Assembly (NCBI RefSeq): GCF_020193575.1
Contig: NZ_JADYVD010000028.1
Span: forward strand, 1 to 64,000
Direction of reading: 5' to 3'
Length of the DNA stretch: 64,000 nucleotides
From: Ensifer sp. IC4062
GTDB lineage: Bacteria; Pseudomonadota; Alphaproteobacteria; Rhizobiales; Rhizobiaceae
Position numbers and translations under genes: made by a program
Shown here: in pieces, positions 3,830 through 37,221 of the stretch
Layout: each line of letters starts with the position of its first letter
Position numbering within the stretch: the first letter of the stretch is position 1
The notes under the pieces: model-generated
What the model saw: the letters and a program-made list of their open reading frames with translations, nothing else
Told to the model about the DNA's origin: nothing
The model's database searches: none

Positions 3830-3996
3830 AGACGATCTTGTTGGGAGAAACCGGTTCAATCCGGTGCCGAAGGAGCAACCGCCCCGGAAACTCTCAGGCC
3901 AAAGGACCAGCAAGGTGCCGGTAGGACTCTGGAGAGAAGCGGTCACGCTCGCCGAAGGGATAACAATCTCAGGCAAAGGGACAGAGGGGGCTCAAA
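3830..3996 (+). promoter_or_regulatory. Tandem glycine riboswitch upstream of gcvT
   Basis: Two glycine aptamers lie in series. The first carries GGGAGA near 3843, GCCGAAGGAGCAA at 3866-3878 and CTCTCAGGCCAAAGGACCAG at 3891-3910. The second carries GGAGAGA near 3931, GCCGAAGGGATAA at 3951-3963 and CTCAGGCAAAGGGACAG at 3968-3984. These are the conserved cores of the glycine (gcvT) riboswitch. Its position directly before gcvTHP indicates that glycine binding turns on the cleavage operon. A short GC hairpin (CGGCG-TTTGA-CGCCG, 4002-4016) follows and may be part of the expression platform. Outer boundaries are approximate. Confidence 0.93.
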
Positions 3997-30550: not shown

Positions 30551-32167
30551 TCACTCCTTCAGTACGCCGCCTGCGGCGATGATCGCTTCCGGGGTGTCGA
30601 GGTCGAGCCGCGCCGCTTCGCCGAGTTCGACGTCGATGACCGGGAGTCCGCACCGCTCGACAATATGTCGTGCGCCGACATCGCCGACGAGCTGCCTGAC
30701 CGCGGCGAATGTCTCTTTCGGCAGAATGACTGGATTGCCGCGCTGGCCTTCCGAGACTGCGCGCACGACCGCTTGGCGGCCCTCGTTGTCGAAGACTTCG
30801 ATCATCTTGCGCAGATGATTGGCGGTAATGCCGGGCATGTCCGCCAGCATCACCAATACGCCACCCGCCTCCGTTCCGAGTGCGGTCGCGCCAGCCACCA
30901 GCGAAGAGGCCATGCCGGCCGCGTAGTCAGGATTCGAGACAAACTCCACAGGCAGGCCGGCCAGCGCAGAGCGGATATCCGCTTCGCGGTGTCCGGTTAC
31001 CACGACCACCTTCCCAGCATCGGCGGCGAGTGCCGTTTCGACTGTGCGCCGCACCAACGGAACGCCGTCGAACTCGGCCAGGAGCTTGTGAGAGCCGCTC
31101 GCACCCATCCTGGTTGCCCGGCCCGCAGCCAGAACGACGATCCGTGCCGGACCTCGCGGTGGACTGACGGTTTGCTCCCGCGGTTGCGGCCGCGTCGGAA
31201 TCTCTTTTAGCAGGCCGCCGACACCGAGGCCGGTTATATCCTCGGAATTCGGCCATTCGCCGGCCAGCAGGCGTTCGAGTATCCAGTCGAAGCCGTTCTC
31301 CCGGGGGCTGCGTGCACAACCCGGCGCCCCCACGACAGGAAGTTCGGCAATTCGACCCAGCACCAGAAGATTGCCCGGGTCGACCGGCATTCCGACATGT
31401 TCGACGACTCCTCCGACGCGCCGGATTGCCGCCGGGATCACGTCGTCCGGATCGGCGACTGCCGAAGCGCCGAAGATGATGATCAGGTCATGGGCCGTCT
31501 TGAGATCGGCGATGGCGGCGGCTACGGCGTCTTCTGAATGCGCCACGCGGCGTTCCGTGACGAGATGGCTTCCGGAACGCAAGAGCCGGGCAGCGAGAAC
31601 CGTATGTGTCTTGTCCATGACTTGTTGCTTGAGCGATGGCAATTCGGTTGCGATCAGTGCCGCGCGATGCGGCACGAAGGGCTTTACCTCAAAGGCTGCC
31701 TCTGCCCGCAACATATTCTCCGCCTGCTCGACGAACCGTTCCGATACCGCCAGCGGAATGATCTTAATCGTCGCTACCATGTCGCCGGTTGCGACTGCCG
31801 TGTGATCGGCGAGGCAGGCGAGCGTGATCGCCGGATCGATCCGGTTCACCCGGTCGACGGCAGCGCGGTTTGCCACGAAAAGACCTGAGACGGTGGCATG
31901 GACGTTCACCCGGCCGGTCGCTGCTTGTGAAAAGCGCAAGTGGTCTGGCGCGATCGCCGCGGCGATGCGTGCCGCCGCCTCGTTTTCAAGCAGGTCATCC
32001 GCATCGAGCCGCGCGACGATGACCTCCTCCACACCCGCTTCGGCAAGCGTCGTGATGTCCGTTCGGCTCAGCCTGTGACCTTTCGACAATCGCTGCGCTC
32101 CGGTTTTCATTGCATGCCCAAGAACAGCGCCCTCGGCTTCAGCGAGCGTTACGGGACCGAACTTCAT
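30551..32167 (-). CDS. Molybdopterin-binding domain / MobA-like nucleotidyltransferase fusion
   Basis: About 538 residues in two parts. The N-terminal ~340 residues resemble a MoeA/CinA-type molybdopterin-binding protein (GAVLGHAMKTG, DLIIIFGASAVADPDDVIPA, LVLGRIAELPVVGAPGCARS). The C-terminal ~200 residues form a MobA/MocA-like nucleotidyltransferase (IVVLAAGRATRMGASGSHKLL, LVMLADMPGIT, QRGNPVILP). This suggests attachment of CMP to molybdopterin for enzymes of the xanthine/CO dehydrogenase family. The start at 32167 overlaps the upstream XdhC gene by four bases (ATGA). It sits in an operon of maturation genes. Confidence 0.88.
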   Translation of the reverse strand: MKFGPVTLAEAEGAVLGHAMKTGAQRLSKGHRLSRTDITTLAEAGVEEVIVARLDADDLLENEAAARIAAAIAPDHLRFSQAATGRVNVHATVSGLFVANRAAVDRVNRIDPAITLACLADHTAVATGDMVATIKIIPLAVSERFVEQAENMLRAEAAFEVKPFVPHRAALIATELPSLKQQVMDKTHTVLAARLLRSGSHLVTERRVAHSEDAVAAAIADLKTAHDLIIIFGASAVADPDDVIPAAIRRVGGVVEHVGMPVDPGNLLVLGRIAELPVVGAPGCARSPRENGFDWILERLLAGEWPNSEDITGLGVGGLLKEIPTRPQPREQTVSPPRGPARIVVLAAGRATRMGASGSHKLLAEFDGVPLVRRTVETALAADAGKVVVVTGHREADIRSALAGLPVEFVSNPDYAAGMASSLVAGATALGTEAGGVLVMLADMPGITANHLRKMIEVFDNEGRQAVVRAVSEGQRGNPVILPKETFAAVRQLVGDVGARHIVERCGLPVIDVELGEAARLDLDTPEAIIAAGGVLKE

Positions 32168-32871
32168 CTTGCACCTCCCACCCGGCCCGTCGGGTCGCGG
32201 CGGCGCAAGGCTTCGATGATTTCGGCCAGGATGGCGACGGCGATTTCTGCGGGGCTCGCCGCGCCGATGTCGAGGCCGATCGGGGCTTTGATCCGGCCAA
32301 TTGCCTCCGTTGGCACGCCTGCTTGTCCCAATCTTTCGAGACGTGCAGCATGAGTTTTGCGGCTGCCGAGTGCGCCCACATAGAAGCAACCCGCCTCCAG
32401 GGCCATCCGGATCGGATAATCGTCGATCTTCGGATCATGCGTGAGCGCGGCGAGTGCCGTGTAGCGGTCAAGTGGCCTTGAGGGCAGAATGTCTTCCGGC
32501 CATTCAGTCAGGAGCTCGACAGCGCCGAACCGCTCTGCTGTCGCGAACGCCGTGCGTGGATCTATGATCGTCATATCGAATCCGGCAACCGCCGCTAACT
32601 CGGCAAGCGCTTGGGAGATGTGAACGGCACCGATCGCAACGATGCGCGGTGGCGGCAGATGGACATTGACGAAAAGCGATCGTCCTTCCACCGCCACAAC
32701 GCCGGCGCGTCCTGAACGCAGCGCTTCGACGATCAGACTATCCCATTTCGGTGGAAAGCTCGCGCCTTCCAGAAAGACCTGACTGACGCCGTCGGAAAGG
32801 TCGGTAACGACCACCGCTGCCCGTCGCGCGGCACGCGCTGCGTTGATTGCCTGAAGGGTCGAGCGTTCCAT
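32164..32871 (-). CDS. XdhC-family protein (CoxI-like), 235 aa
   Basis: XdhC-family maturation protein with the C-terminal Rossmann-like domain (PRIVAIGAVHISQALAELAA, GSRKTHAARLERL, IGLDIGAASPAEIAVAILAE). XdhC proteins bind molybdenum cofactor and load the sulfurated form into xanthine dehydrogenase-type enzymes. The stop overlaps the MobA-like gene by four bases and the start is two bases after the shorter XdhC gene, so coupling is tight. Confidence 0.88.
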   Translation of the reverse strand: MERSTLQAINAARAARRAAVVVTDLSDGVSQVFLEGASFPPKWDSLIVEALRSGRAGVVAVEGRSLFVNVHLPPPRIVAIGAVHISQALAELAAVAGFDMTIIDPRTAFATAERFGAVELLTEWPEDILPSRPLDRYTALAALTHDPKIDDYPIRMALEAGCFYVGALGSRKTHAARLERLGQAGVPTEAIGRIKAPIGLDIGAASPAEIAVAILAEIIEALRRRDPTGRVGGAR

Positions 32872-32873
32872 CG

Positions 32874-33233
32874 TTAGCCATCAATTCTTTCGACATAGAC
32901 CCGAATGCGGCCGCCGCAGGAAAGGCCGACGCGCCATGCAGTCTCGTCGGCGACACCGAATTCGAGGATCTTGGGGATTCCGAATTCAATGATCTCCATT
33001 GCCTCCGCGATGACGGCGCCTTCGACGCATCCGCCGGAGACGGATCCCTGGAAGTTTCCTTCGTCATCGATCACCAGGTGGCTGCCGATCGGTCGCGGTG
33101 CCGACCCCCAAGTCTCGATGACTGTAGCAAGTGCTACTTTGCGTCCGTCACTGCACCAGGCTTCGGCGACCTCCAGCGGGTCGAGGATGTTGGGCTCTTT
33201 CGACATGTTGGTTACCAGTTGTTCGTTTCTCAT
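32874..33233 (-). CDS. XdhC N-terminal-domain protein (CoxF-like), 119 aa
   Basis: A short protein that contains only the XdhC_CoxI N-terminal domain: ALATVIETWGSAPRPIGSHL, GSVSGGCVEGAV with the conserved Cys, and VGLSCGGRIRVYVE. It complements the longer XdhC partner downstream, as in cox clusters where both forms occur. The start at 33233 overlaps the VWA gene stop by four bases (ATGA). A second Met at residue 10 is possible. Confidence 0.87.
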   Translation of the reverse strand: MRNEQLVTNMSKEPNILDPLEVAEAWCSDGRKVALATVIETWGSAPRPIGSHLVIDDEGNFQGSVSGGCVEGAVIAEAMEIIEFGIPKILEFGVADETAWRVGLSCGGRIRVYVERIDG

Positions 33234-34486
33234 GCCGCTCTCGTGGGCAAGAAGCGCCGTGGATCGGCGTCTTGCGCACCCTGACCGGACAGCGATTTCA
33301 CCAGCTCGGCCACAGATTCAAGATTGTGCACCGCCCGGAATTCGTCAACATGCGGCAGCATGGCCCTGACGCCCCGGGCGCGCGCCTCAAATCCGTCGAA
33401 GCGCAGCAACGGGTTGAGCCAGATCAGGCGCCGGCAGGAGCGATGCAGGCGATCGATCTCGACTTCGAGTTCCGCTGTATCATCGCGCTCGAGGCCATCG
33501 GTGATCAGGAGGACGATGGCACCCTGCCCGAGCACCCGGCGCGACCAGCGCCGGTTGAATTCGCGAAGCGTTTCGCCGATGCGGGTGCCGCCGGACCAGT
33601 CCTTGACCGCCGCCACGCATTCGTCGAGCGCTTCGTCGGGATCGCGATTGCGCATCTGGCGAGTGACATTCGTCAGCCGCGTCCCGAAAAGAAACGTGTG
33701 AACGCGTTGTCGCTGTTCCGTCAGCGCATGCAGGAAATGCAGGAAAATCCGCGTGTACTGGCTCATCGATCCGGAAATATCGGCAAGCACGACGAGCGGC
33801 GGATGAACAAGGCGCGGCTCGCGAAAGCGCGGCAGGATCAATTCGCCGCCAAAGCGCAACGCATCGCGCATTGTGGCGCGCGGATCGATCCGTGCCGGCC
33901 GATGGGCGGCGCGAAAGCGTCGGCTCCGCACCCGATCCAGCGGCAATATCAGCGATGACAAGGCCCTCCTCGCCTCAGCGATCTCCGCTGTGCTCATTTG
34001 CGCGAAATCGGCCTTGCGGAAAAGCTCGCGACCCGAAACCGTGTAGCGAGCGTCGACCTCAATTTCCGGTTCGTCGCGCGGTGAACGGGCATCGTCCCTT
34101 CCTGCGAGAAGTGACTCGCGGAGGCGCTCCTGGCCGGCGCGCCTCGTTCGATCTTCAACCTGCCGCTCCGGCGCAGTCGGTGACAGGAGCGCGATCATCT
34201 TCTGGACGAGGTCGCGTGAGCGCCAGAAAAGGTTGAACGCTTCGTCGAATACAGTCTGATCCTCATGGCGCTTGACGAAGGTGCATTGAAGGGCCGCGTA
34301 GAATTCGTTGCGGGAACCGATCCCTATCAAAGTAACGGCATCAATGGCGTCGGCAATGGCCGCCGGACCAATTCTCATGCCCGCCCTTCGAAGCGCACGG
34401 GCAAAGAAGACGATGTTGTCAGCAAGTTTGCCCTCGCCAAGCGCGATCGGAGAAGCTGCCGTGCGATCAACCTGCTCGTCCACCAT
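33230..34486 (-). CDS. VWA-domain protein, CoxE-like
   Basis: A 418-residue protein of the CoxE family with a von Willebrand A domain. The metal-ion (MIDAS) motif is DISGSMS in LVVLADISGSMSQYTRIF, with SGGTRIGETL and LLITDGLERDD as the later motif positions. In carbon monoxide dehydrogenase maturation, CoxE works with the MoxR ATPase CoxD to build the Cu-S-Mo site. Here it follows the MoxR gene by five bases, the same order as coxD-coxE. Confidence 0.9.
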   Translation of the reverse strand: MVDEQVDRTAASPIALGEGKLADNIVFFARALRRAGMRIGPAAIADAIDAVTLIGIGSRNEFYAALQCTFVKRHEDQTVFDEAFNLFWRSRDLVQKMIALLSPTAPERQVEDRTRRAGQERLRESLLAGRDDARSPRDEPEIEVDARYTVSGRELFRKADFAQMSTAEIAEARRALSSLILPLDRVRSRRFRAAHRPARIDPRATMRDALRFGGELILPRFREPRLVHPPLVVLADISGSMSQYTRIFLHFLHALTEQRQRVHTFLFGTRLTNVTRQMRNRDPDEALDECVAAVKDWSGGTRIGETLREFNRRWSRRVLGQGAIVLLITDGLERDDTAELEVEIDRLHRSCRRLIWLNPLLRFDGFEARARGVRAMLPHVDEFRAVHNLESVAELVKSLSGQGAQDADPRRFLPTRAA

Positions 34487-34491
34487 GGCGG

Positions 34492-35421
34492 TCAGCCCTG
34501 CGCCTGCAGTTCGGCCTTGACCTCCGCAAGCAGCTTGCGCCCCTCCGCACCCTCGATCCGCGCGATATCATCCTGGTATTTGAGCAATGTGCCGAGCGTG
34601 TCGGCGATCGTTTCCGGATCGAGCGCCAACCGGTCGAGTTCGGTGAGCGCTGTCGCCCAATCGATCGTCTCCGCCACGCCGGGGTTCTTGAAAAGATCGA
34701 TCGCCCGCAGTCTTTGGACATAGGCGACGAGTTCCCGTGATAGGTTGGCGTTGCAGCCGGGCACCTTGCGCCGGATGATCTCCAGTTCCTGCGCCGCCCT
34801 CGGATAGTCGACCCAGTGGTAAAGGCAGCGCCGCTTCAGGGCGTCGTGAATTTCCCGGGTGCGGTTGGTCGTGATCACGACGATCGGCGGCTCGTCCGCC
34901 CTGATCGTCCCGAGTTCGGGGATGGTGACTTGAAAATCGGAAAGGACTTCCAGAAGGAAAGCCTCAAAAGCTTCGTCGGTACGGTCTAGTTCGTCGATCA
35001 AGAATACTGGAGCCCGGCCCGTGCCGGCGGATATCGCCTGAAGCACCGGGCGGCGGATAAGAAAACGTTCGGAGAAGATGTCGCCTTCGATCCTTTGGCG
35101 GTCGACCATGCCGGCCGCTTCCGAAAGGCGTATCTCCAGCATCTGCGCCGGGTAGTTCCATTCATAGACGGCCGAGGAGACGTCGAGCCCTTCGTAGCAT
35201 TGCAGTCGGATCAGGGGACGATCGAGCGAACGCGCAAGGACCTTGGCTATCTCGGTCTTGCCGACGCCCGCCTCGCCTTCCAGAAATAGCGGGCGCTTCA
35301 TTTTCAGGGCCAGGAAAAGCACCGTCGCAAGCTGAGTTCCGGCGAGATAGTCCTGTGCCTCCAGCATGGCCAGAGTCTCGTCGATGGATTGCGGCAGCCT
35401 TCCCGTCTCGTGCTTCGCCAT
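34492..35421 (-). CDS. MoxR-family AAA ATPase, CoxD-like
   Basis: A 309-residue AAA+ ATPase of the MoxR/CoxD group. Walker A is GEAGVGKT (residues 49-56), Walker B is VFLIDELDR, sensor 1 is VVITTNRTREI and the arginine-rich C-terminal helical lid follows. MoxR proteins act as chaperones together with VWA partners, here the adjacent CoxE-like protein. GGAGG precedes the ATG. The flavin reductase gene lies 24 bases upstream. Confidence 0.92.
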   Translation of the reverse strand: MAKHETGRLPQSIDETLAMLEAQDYLAGTQLATVLFLALKMKRPLFLEGEAGVGKTEIAKVLARSLDRPLIRLQCYEGLDVSSAVYEWNYPAQMLEIRLSEAAGMVDRQRIEGDIFSERFLIRRPVLQAISAGTGRAPVFLIDELDRTDEAFEAFLLEVLSDFQVTIPELGTIRADEPPIVVITTNRTREIHDALKRRCLYHWVDYPRAAQELEIIRRKVPGCNANLSRELVAYVQRLRAIDLFKNPGVAETIDWATALTELDRLALDPETIADTLGTLLKYQDDIARIEGAEGRKLLAEVKAELQAQG

Positions 35422-35445
35422 GTTTCCTCCGTGGCCGAAGAAAAC

Positions 35446-35973
35446 TTATAGCGTGTGGTATCCCCGGTCCACATAAATGAGCGGCGGCTGCTTCTCCCCG
35501 AGGCGCAGATCGACGACTTCGCCGAAGAGGATGAGATGGGTCGCCATGATCTTGACCTCGATGAGGCGGCAGTCGAAAGCGACGACAGCGTCGGTGAGGA
35601 TGGGCGCGCCGGTGGCAAGCTGCGTCCATTGGCCGAGCGCGAAGCGCCGGTCCATGTCGAGCTGATCGCGACCGGAGAAGGCATGGGCGAGCGCCTTGTG
35701 CGTCTCGCCAAGCACATTTAGTGCAAAAGCACCGGAGCGAGCGAAGATATCGTTGCGAGGATTTGCGGCATTGAGGCAGGCAAGGATCGTCGGAGGATCA
35801 TCAGATACGGAGCAGGACGCCGTGATCGTGACGCCGCGCCGCGCGCGCCCATCGGCCGTGGTGATGAGCTGCACATGAGCAGACATGCGGCTCATCGCGT
35901 CGCGGTAACTTATCGGGTCCAGTCGGGTCTTCTCCAACACATCTCTCTCCGGATCGATGTCTTGCACATACAT
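35446..35973 (-). CDS. Flavin reductase-domain protein
   Basis: A 175-residue FMN-binding protein of the HpaC-like flavin reductase family: MSRMSAHVQLITTADGRARR, GVTITASCSVSDDPPTILAC and FALNVLGE form the flavin site. Such proteins reduce FMN or FAD with NAD(P)H for a partner oxygenase. It heads the minus-strand maturation operon, 24 bases before the MoxR gene; whether it serves the same enzyme is unknown. No partner monooxygenase is in the window. Confidence 0.87.
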   Translation of the reverse strand: MYVQDIDPERDVLEKTRLDPISYRDAMSRMSAHVQLITTADGRARRGVTITASCSVSDDPPTILACLNAANPRNDIFARSGAFALNVLGETHKALAHAFSGRDQLDMDRRFALGQWTQLATGAPILTDAVVAFDCRLIEVKIMATHLILFGEVVDLRLGEKQPPLIYVDRGYHTL

Positions 35974-36132
35974 AGACTCTCACGGAAAATATGAAACCCG
36001 GCCGCGCGAGATTCTTGCGAAGCAGCGGCATAGTCATGGCGTGATCGGAATGACGAGCTCCTGCGGTGCGATCTTTTCCTTTGACGGAGAGAGACACATC
36101 CTTAAAAGATGGCGTCGTTGCGGGAAAAATAC

Positions 36133-37221
36133 ATGTTTAGATTGATTGTTAAGAGCATCGTTGTCGCCGGATTGATATCGGCCTCCCCTGCCCTTGCTGC
36201 AGGGTTGAAAGTTGCCGTCGTGGCTCCCACCGAAGGGCCTTTCGCCATGCTTGGAAAGCAGATGGTGGACGGCGCCTCCTTTCAGGTGGACGAGCGTGGA
36301 AGTCAGGTTATCCCGATCGCCGAAAGCTGCGATCCCGCTGGCGGCGAGGCGCTGACGAAGGCGCTGCTGGCGAGCGGCGCGGAGGCAGCAATCGGCTTTC
36401 TCTGCACGGAGAGCCTCGAAGCTGCCCTGCCCGCCCTGGCCGAGGCTCGCATTCCTGCAATCACGCTCAGCGTCCGCTCCGACATTCTGATGGAGGACGC
36501 GCTCAAGAAGAATTGGCCGTTTTTCCGGCTGGCACCGAGTGGAAAAGCCGAAGCCGCGGCGATCACCGACGTCATCGTCGCGAACTGGAAGGGCAAACCG
36601 CTCGCGCTCATCGACGACGGCACGATCCATAGCAGGGAGCTTGTCGAAAGCGTTCGTAACGCACTTGCCGAGATAGGCGTGACGCCTGTGTTTACCGATA
36701 CATACCGCCCGGCGCAGGAACAGCAGGTCAGCCTGGTCCGGCGACTGGCGAAGAGCGGCGCTACCCACATCTTTACCGGAGGCGACCGCTACGATACCGC
36801 CGTGATTGCGCGGGATGCGAAGGCTGAAAAGGTTCCGGTAACCCTGCTTGGTGGCGACGTACTGAACGCCGCCGACCTTGATGTGCCGCTTGAAAACGGA
36901 GTGCTTGCCGTGACGGTTCCGGAGACGTCTCGGTCGAGCGAAGCCGCAGCCGTCGCAAAGGCGATGCGCGCAAGCGGGATCGAACCGGAGGGTTATGTCC
37001 TGCCGGCCTTCGCCGCCATATCGCTGCTCGAACAGGCAAAGGACCAGGCATCCAAGGACGGAAGCGCGCTTCCCGAAGCCCTGCTGAAAGTGCCCTTTGC
37101 AACGGTTCTTGGGCCAATAAAATTCAACGACAGCCACGAGAGGACCGACACGCCCTACCGGTTAATGAAATGGCAGGACGGTCGCTTCGTCGCGGCCACG
37201 GGCGCGGGCGGTGCGGATTGA
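36133..37221 (+). CDS. Periplasmic binding protein, LivJ-like
   Basis: About 362 residues with a signal peptide (MFRLIVKSIVVAGLISASPALA). The type I periplasmic-binding fold is seen from LKVAVVAPTEGPFAMLGKQM onward through IGFLCTESLEAALPAL and THIFTGGDRYDTAVIARDAK. Such proteins bind amino acids or similar solutes for ABC importers or sensors, but no permease or ATPase gene is adjacent. The start at 36133 was chosen over 36109 because the signal peptide begins there. The stop overlaps the P1 peptidase start by one base. Confidence 0.85.
   Translation: MFRLIVKSIVVAGLISASPALAAGLKVAVVAPTEGPFAMLGKQMVDGASFQVDERGSQVIPIAESCDPAGGEALTKALLASGAEAAIGFLCTESLEAALPALAEARIPAITLSVRSDILMEDALKKNWPFFRLAPSGKAEAAAITDVIVANWKGKPLALIDDGTIHSRELVESVRNALAEIGVTPVFTDTYRPAQEQQVSLVRRLAKSGATHIFTGGDRYDTAVIARDAKAEKVPVTLLGGDVLNAADLDVPLENGVLAVTVPETSRSSEAAAVAKAMRASGIEPEGYVLPAFAAISLLEQAKDQASKDGSALPEALLKVPFATVLGPIKFNDSHERTDTPYRLMKWQDGRFVAATGAGGAD

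Follow-up and report, generated by a model that had tools for sequence, protein, structure and literature searches.

A detached maturation cluster in Ensifer probably serves a form II CoxSLM molybdenum hydroxylase encoded elsewhere in the genome

The first 64,000 nucleotides of contig NZ_JADYVD010000028.1 of Ensifer sp. IC4062 (the window, meaning this whole stretch) contain, on the minus strand between positions 35973 and 30230, a cluster of six to seven genes that probably build and insert the molybdenum cofactor. The data suggest, with good probability, that these genes once made up the 3′ half of a form II cox operon and have become detached from it, and that the cluster serves mainly the CoxS-CoxL-CoxM (CoxSLM) enzyme encoded on another contig, C137, of the same genome. 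This reading is built on domains, operon-like spacing, conservation, linkage and co-occurrence, from which all of the biochemistry proposed below is inferred. The first-pass annotation had taken the genes for a maturation cluster of a CO dehydrogenase-type molybdenum hydroxylase, which fits both their domains and the gene order found in other genomes.

Organization and conservation of the cluster

The cluster and the region upstream of it are made up of the following features (aa, amino acids).

35446..35973, minus strand: flavin reductase, first gene of the operon, 175 aa; PF01613, 119.7 bits
34492..35421, minus strand: MoxR-type AAA+ ATPase, CoxD-like, 309 aa; PF07728, 41 bits
33230..34486, minus strand: CoxE-type VWA protein with a MIDAS-like DISGS motif, 418 aa; PF05762, 269.9 bits, above the gathering score of 26.4
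32874..33233, minus strand: XdhC N-terminal domain as a gene of its own, 119 aa, VGLSCGG motif; PF02625 (XdhC_CoxI), 87.2 bits
32164..32871, minus strand: XdhC C-terminal Rossmann domain as a gene of its own, 235 aa; PF13478 (XdhC_C), 132.5 bits
30551..32164, minus strand: fusion of a MoeA-like part (about residues 1-317) and a MocA-like nucleotidyltransferase (about 337-533); MoCF_biosynth, 33.8 bits, and NTP_transf_3, 132.3 bits
30230..30547, minus strand: TfoX N-domain protein, last gene, 105 aa; PF04993 (TfoX_N), 103.9 bits
35974..36108: probable promoter region, intergenic, with a divergent Peripla_BP_6 gene (36109-37221, plus strand) on its other side from the operon

In profile searches all seven proteins exceeded the curated Pfam cut-offs, and neighbouring genes, all on one strand, either overlap or leave gaps of a few to about 25 bases. 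The tight operon of MoxR, CoxE, two XdhC genes and a nucleotidyltransferase that had been described earlier was thus located in full, and the predicted flavin reductase and TfoX proteins were found at its two ends. The proposed extent, 30551 to 35973, was right at its upper end, while the TfoX gene carries the lower end to 30230. The fusion protein has 537 aa from an ATG start; a longer open reading frame is possible from an upstream TTG.

To describe the conservation of the cluster, neighbourhoods were fetched for 80 CoxE loci from 79 genomes of the family, probably Rhizobiaceae in a wide sense (all those with CoxE other than the window's own genome and G043, G089 and G110); several of the loci end at contig ends. 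The order MoxR, CoxE, XdhC N-half, XdhC C-half was kept in 78 of these loci, and hence the cluster is not a chance assembly. The flavin reductase gene was present in 67, and a TfoX gene stood directly behind the fusion gene in 15. Among 80 named loci the nearest was that of Ensifer sp. MPMI2T, where CoxE is 95% identical and the genes around it are 92-99% identical. For 180 loci, counting neighbours −60 to 200 bp apart, the median gaps along the gene order were 26, 4, 7, 2, −4 and 3 bp (129, 175, 168, 168, 168 and 35 neighbour pairs, respectively), and the flavin reductase and MoxR genes kept such a spacing in 129 of the 132 loci that had both on the same strand. The Walker A sequence GEAGVGKT together with LIDELD was found in 90 of the listed MoxR loci. 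Upstream of the operon, conserved blocks were seen across seven aligned relatives. A sigma-70 promoter scan found 0 candidates against a mean of 1.4 in shuffled sequences, terminator-like elements numbered 2 against a mean of 5.8, and inspection by eye of the regions upstream of the cluster and of coxS revealed no common motif.

The core of the cluster follows coxSLM in linked operons

The class survey covered 289 alphaproteobacterial genomes, of which 288, from outside the family, were counted after exclusion of the window's own, with thresholds of E≤1e-60 for CoxE and at least 54% identity for form II CoxL. CoxE was present in 101 genomes and CoxL in 100: both in 84, CoxE only in 17, CoxL only in 16 and neither in 171 (phi 0.75, Fisher p 1.6e-38). 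The two genes lay less than 15 kb apart in 46 of the 84 genomes with both, always on the same strand. Twenty of these 46 linked loci were fetched, and every one showed coxS, coxL, coxM, MoxR, CoxE, XdhC N-half, XdhC C-half and MoeA/MocA fusion in this order and in one direction. Since this is the core set of the cluster in identical order behind coxSLM, the cluster appears to consist of form II cox maturation genes. A coxG gene was found near coxS in 12 of the 20 loci.

Seven of the 80 named loci were also counted as linked, including those of Pseudolabrys and Xanthobacteraceae bins (flanks of at most 8 kb); among the seven, coxSLM lies on the opposite strand in L268, and only coxM falls within the stretch in L272 and L276. 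The loci of Labrenzia alba (L271) and Pseudovibrio japonicus (L281) have MoxR-CoxE, with no XdhC or MoeA/MocA matches in the fetched stretch.

Molybdenum hydroxylases in the same genome

The 7.12-Mb genome, in which the cluster lies on contig C96, gave 13 matches to PF02738, corresponding to 11 large subunits. None of them is on C96, in agreement with the earlier statement that no large subunit stands beside the cluster, and a hydroxylase adjoining it was rejected on this ground; the genome-wide search was made for large subunits and not for small or medium ones. The type names Ior and Pao used here were assigned from layout and similarity, apart from one PaoC model match, and gene calls around the large subunits came from a simple script.

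C137:5744-9478: CoxS-CoxL-CoxM set, just upstream of hemA
C109: xanthine dehydrogenase with its own xdhC
C102: xanthine dehydrogenase with no xdhC of its own
C33 and C120: Pao-type sets, of which that on C120 passes the PaoC model
C107 (two), C55, C127, C164 and C85: six Ior-type enzymes

The client of the cluster is very probably the form II CoxSLM enzyme on C137. Its genes have the coxS-coxL-coxM order of form II CO dehydrogenase-type enzymes, its CoxL carries the AYRGAGR motif, and no accessory genes were found within the 17.5 kb read around it. A large subunit without maturation genes of its own, which the first-pass annotation had proposed to look for, does therefore exist. That annotation had placed the enzyme served either elsewhere or among new enzymes; elsewhere is very probably right, and the enzyme need not be new, given the form II Cox assignment. 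CoxL failed the test for form I CO dehydrogenase (TIGR02416, 639.5 bits against a cut-off of 991.15), and its AYRGAGR aligns with AYRCSFR of 1n5w, which means that the copper-binding cysteine is replaced. The best NCBIfam model was glyceraldehyde dehydrogenase subunit alpha, which we take to be an archaeal model; because the score (660.8 bits) falls below the cut-off of 790, no substrate is claimed for CoxL.

Matches to XdhC_C above the cut-off were found in three genes, namely in the cluster, on C109 and at C107:74931. CoxE had a single strong match in the genome (271.6 bits); the second reached 33.8 bits, and the MoxR-VWA pair on C92 to which it belongs was for this reason rejected as a second copy of the cluster. 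The fusion protein also had one genome match at E≤1e-12. The case that would have spoken against an orphan cluster, with every enzyme accounted for by maturation genes of its own, was not found: only the xanthine dehydrogenase on C109, among the 11 enzymes, adjoins an XdhC_C gene, and no second full CoxE gene was found in the genome. With a lone coxG at C87:249268, the cox genes are spread over at least three places (C137, C96 and C87), and the cluster and coxSLM are not linked.

The hemA gene behind coxSLM encodes 5-aminolevulinate synthase (L033 9652-10899; TIGR01821, 705.7 bits), and hemA also lies in the stretch of 6 of 14 other family coxSLM loci (L169-L174 of L169-L182). The third XdhC_C open reading frame (C107:74931-75239, open frame of 322 aa) precedes transposase-like genes and is more than 12 kb from the nearer of the two Ior-type enzymes on C107.

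Co-occurrence of CoxE and form II CoxL within the family

The family survey included 121 genomes, approximately one per genus (109 genera), and ortholog sets were compiled by hand from separate searches. The CoxE set (at least 44% identity) comprised 83 genomes, including the fragments in G043, G089 and G110 and excluding a 29-residue CoxE end in G095; the CoxL set (at least 73%) comprised 85 genomes, among the matches listed. Ior and Pao enzymes were scored from the best 8-9 candidates per genome, so that absences may be false (5 of the 6 Ior enzymes of the window's genome were found). The MocA-like part was counted as present when the fusion protein matched at E≤1e-12; in G119, which has none of the three enzymes, only the MoeA-like part matched. 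As the genomes are related, p-values serve as a guide only.

The data showed that CoxE and CoxL (among the matches listed) were both present in 82 genomes, CoxE only in one (G065), CoxL only in three and neither in 35, which gives a phi of 0.92. Two of the three CoxL-only genomes, G077 and G095, have pieces of the cluster broken by contig ends (L165, L167 and L168), and phi is 0.96 when these are counted as having CoxE. The corresponding counts (both, CoxE only, enzyme only, neither) were 65/18/7/31 for Ior-type enzymes (phi 0.57) and 41/42/12/26 for Pao-type enzymes (phi 0.17). Hence, CoxE tracks form II CoxL better than either of the other types. A match to the fusion protein was present in 100 of the 101 genomes that encode at least one of these three kinds of enzyme, and in three further genomes. 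Because cluster and coxSLM are unlinked in the window's genome and in 78 of the 80 fetched family loci, their partnership there rests on co-occurrence; in 2 of the 80 family loci, L156 and L158, coxSLM does stand beside MoxR-CoxE.

The split XdhC and the MoeA-like/MocA-like fusion

The two XdhC genes had been annotated as a short CoxF and a long CoxI. They are better read as a single XdhC split in two than as such paralogues, because each open reading frame holds a different half: the XdhC chaperone domain pair PF02625 and PF13478 is present, one domain per adjacent gene. The halves were separate open reading frames in all 99 loci that had both (120 examined, linked operons included). Scored separately against TIGR02964, the XdhC of xanthine dehydrogenase, they gave 32.6 and 56.5 bits and did not reach the 161.6 bits of that model. 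The N-half carries the motif VGL(S/A)CGG, and the MxxxxxxM spacing of the suspected copper site of CoxF, MCPSHGTM, was found in 1 of the 99 N-halves. The C-half matched 2we7/2we8 in the PDB (E 6.7e-33), while a phmmer search of the PDB with CoxE gave no match.

The enzyme earlier called MobA-like is nearer to MocA, which is its best NCBIfam model (TIGR03310, 130.6 bits), than to MobA (TIGR02665, 37.6 bits), and a MobA above its cut-off is encoded separately on C105. The structure model of the fusion had a mean pLDDT of 90.1 (89.8 for the N-terminal part modelled alone). Its C-terminal fold is MocA-like, as seen in comparison with 3d5n (Z 24.1, root mean square deviation (rmsd) 1.7, 171 aligned residues) and 2wee (Z 23.9, rmsd 2.2, 188 aligned); GlmU and IspD score nearly as high as the MocA-related folds, so the fold alone cannot name the substrate. 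Residues 1-303 resemble gephyrin E and Cnx1E in pieces (Z 13-14, rmsd near 18), and within them residues 165-303 superpose over 133 residues at an rmsd of 2.6-2.8, with MoaB and MogA nearly as good. The top Foldseek hit of the N-terminal part was MoeA 1uz5 (E 5.8e-8), with a TM-score of only 0.31. In the MoeA-like domain (31175-32164, minus strand), G(M)PVDPGNL and GAPGCARS..NGFD are invariant in 35 aligned relatives.

Apart from the cluster, the window contains a glycine riboswitch aptamer (3832-3919, plus strand; 67.1 bits).

Discussion

Several observations weigh against the cluster being the maturation half of a form II cox operon. No match to a Cox, Pao, Ior or Xdh subunit was found in the stretch of 78 of the 80 fetched family clusters, and L156 and L158, where coxSLM is adjacent, are without the XdhC/MocA half in theirs. 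G114 has CoxSLM and the XdhC/MocA half, and MoxR-CoxE was not found in it, while G065 has the cluster and, as its best CoxL match among those listed, only a remoter one (E 4.6e-184). CoxE correlates with Ior-type enzymes as well. In the class, 17 genomes have CoxE only and 16 CoxL only, and 38 of the 84 with both show no linkage of the genes at under 15 kb on a single contig, although some of these assemblies are fragmented. A flavin reductase gene was found in just 1 of the 20 fetched linked operons (L184), where it is non-adjacent. Finally, the fusion stays below the curated cut-off of TIGR03310 (186.45 bits). As regards G114, its CoxSLM comes with a coxG and a distant XdhC match, and the XdhC/MocA half is elsewhere (L163, L164).

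The alternative that the whole cluster, including MoxR-CoxE, serves all hydroxylases of the Ior, Pao and Cox types with the cytosine dinucleotide cofactor (MCD) equally is suggested by the one fusion match and one strong CoxE available for nine large subunits other than xanthine dehydrogenases, and by the phi of 0.57 between CoxE and Ior. It is nevertheless unlikely. Ior or Pao enzymes occur in fifteen family genomes that lack both CoxE and CoxL, of which 14 show a fusion match, and thus these enzymes seem to manage without MoxR-CoxE; the phi for Pao is low; and a 15.6-kb stretch of a Shinella plasmid carries the XdhC halves and MoeA/MocA without MoxR-CoxE, adjoining a three-subunit hydroxylase of the xanthine dehydrogenase family (as seen for this plasmid stretch rather than the whole genome). 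There is even less reason to think that the client is a hydroxylase of a type yet unrecognised, with the co-occurrence with CoxL coming from shared ancestry and genome size. It is true that the family genomes are related, that the counts are not independent and that linkage has been lost within the family. However, the survey took about one genome per genus, many of the listed genomes that lack both genes are of 3-7 Mb, 15 genomes lacking both have Ior or Pao enzymes, and the full operon order in all 20 fetched linked loci outside the family, together with MoxR-CoxE beside coxSLM in L156 and L158, speaks against it.

A role of MoxR-CoxE-XdhC as a chelatase that inserts copper or another second metal into form II CoxL has its basis in Oligotropha carboxidovorans, where coxE and coxF mutants make copper-free CO dehydrogenase (PMC4240915) and CoxDEF is termed a copper chelatase (PMC3471820). 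We consider it improbable for the cluster, as form II has AYRGAGR where form I has AYRCSFR (AYRGAGR in 35 of 38 coxL loci; in the remaining three no AYRxxxR sequence was matched), and the N-half of XdhC shows VGL(S/A)CGG, with MxxxxxxM nearly absent. In more general terms, CoxE and XdhC cannot, judging from these sequences, serve copper insertion alone, because form II CoxL is without the copper-binding cysteine and yet is closely accompanied by CoxE. They may act generally in maturing the molybdenum site, or form II enzymes may bind a second metal in some different manner; the first is simpler. On the other side, coxD, coxE and coxF mutants of O. carboxidovorans yield unfinished CO dehydrogenase: the coxD mutant enzyme has a [MoO3] site without sulfur and copper, and those of coxE and coxF are without copper, from which the authors propose a path of copper insertion (PMC4240915; PMC3471820). 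These mutants point directly to a role in copper insertion for form I, and they speak against a purely general one.

In the preferred reading, in which the cluster is a detached part of a form II cox operon, it has two modules, with MoxR-CoxE going with form II CoxSLM and the split XdhC and MoeA/MocA fusion with MCD-type hydroxylases more widely. This second module is likely to serve further hydroxylases as well, since the MocA-like part accompanies Cox-, Ior- and Pao-type enzymes alike. XdhC is known to bind the molybdenum cofactor, to host its sulfur addition and to insert it, while MocA makes MCD (PMC2997495). By comparison, the fusion would take molybdopterin or molybdenum-molybdopterin and add CMP from CTP to give MCD; the two-piece XdhC would bind MCD, host the addition of the equatorial sulfur and pass the cofactor to the apoenzyme; and MoxR (CoxD) with CoxE may be a chaperone pair that uses ATP to open the apo-CoxL of CoxSLM, so that insertion or sulfuration can take place. 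Ior- and Pao-type hydroxylases in the cell would probably be supplied by the fusion and XdhC steps as well. Electrons for the reductive step proposed for the sulfuration of CO dehydrogenase may come from the flavin reductase; that it is the reductant for the Mo(VI) to Mo(V) step, which the O. carboxidovorans model leaves without explanation, is a guess from the position of its gene. Old membership of this gene in the linked operon was considered and rejected, as it was seen only in L184, with opposite-strand open reading frames in between. A wider proposal, which is possible and is made tentatively, is that MoxR-CoxE and XdhC form a general machine that completes the molybdenum site in Cox-type enzymes without copper, with the copper role in form I added later, and that the stand-alone operon of the family is the only MCD factory of the cell, in which molybdenum insertion and CMP addition are channelled through the fusion as a single step and the flavin reductase is the reductant.

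The cox genes were probably once one form II operon; going by the wide distribution of the linked order, the direction of change would be splitting rather than joining. Such an operon of form II coxSLM with accessory genes was already known (PMC2864759). In coxSLM-coxDEGI of Cupriavidus metallidurans, the like cluster with MoxR/CoxD and CoxE stands behind coxSLM, with AYRGAGR in CoxL (PMC2864759), whereas the window's genome has its structural genes and lone coxG elsewhere, and its cluster is headed by a flavin reductase and has a core that ends in the MoeA-like/MocA-like fusion. Form I coxDEF of O. carboxidovorans shares the MoxR AAA+, VWA with MIDAS and XdhC domains; there, CoxF is a single XdhC of 280 aa where the window's cluster has two genes, and the enzyme binds its copper through a cysteine missing from form II (PMC4240915; PMC3471820). 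The absence of this cysteine from form II had been noted earlier (PMC7248562). With E. coli MocA and the PaoD/XdhC chaperones (PMC2997495) the cluster has in common the XdhC domains and an NTP_transf_3 domain that best matches TIGR03310, but in the window this domain is fused to a MoeA-like one and scores below the cut-off. Sinorhizobium meliloti Ak57 has all seven genes in identical order (LZK74_25710 to LZK74_25680), with a DEAD-box helicase gene behind and a substrate-binding protein gene in front as in the window; no difference in gene order was seen, and the annotation there goes no further than domain names (MoxR family ATPase, VWA, XdhC family, NTP transferase).

In the titles and abstract beginnings listed from the open-licence literature, no description was found of a detached or split form II maturation cluster, nor of a MoeA-MocA fusion. 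Form II coxSLM has been described for Aminobacter and Foliimonas, with no mention of separate accessory genes in the passages concerned (PMC8235418, PMC7645674, PMC12582533). Although form II CO dehydrogenase-type enzymes are widespread, there is dispute over what they oxidize and even over whether they act on CO: CO activity has been doubted (PMC7248562, PMC13203968), and CO oxidizers with form II only have been cited or reported (PMC5747140, PMC2864759, PMC12582533). The pairing of the cluster with an enzyme that has no copper-binding cysteine limits the roles that CoxE and XdhC/CoxF can have in copper CO dehydrogenase, and G114 is a natural case in which to ask if CoxSLM can do without MoxR-CoxE. 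In S. meliloti, the separate maturation genes would provide a clean genetic handle on the substrate of the form II enzyme.

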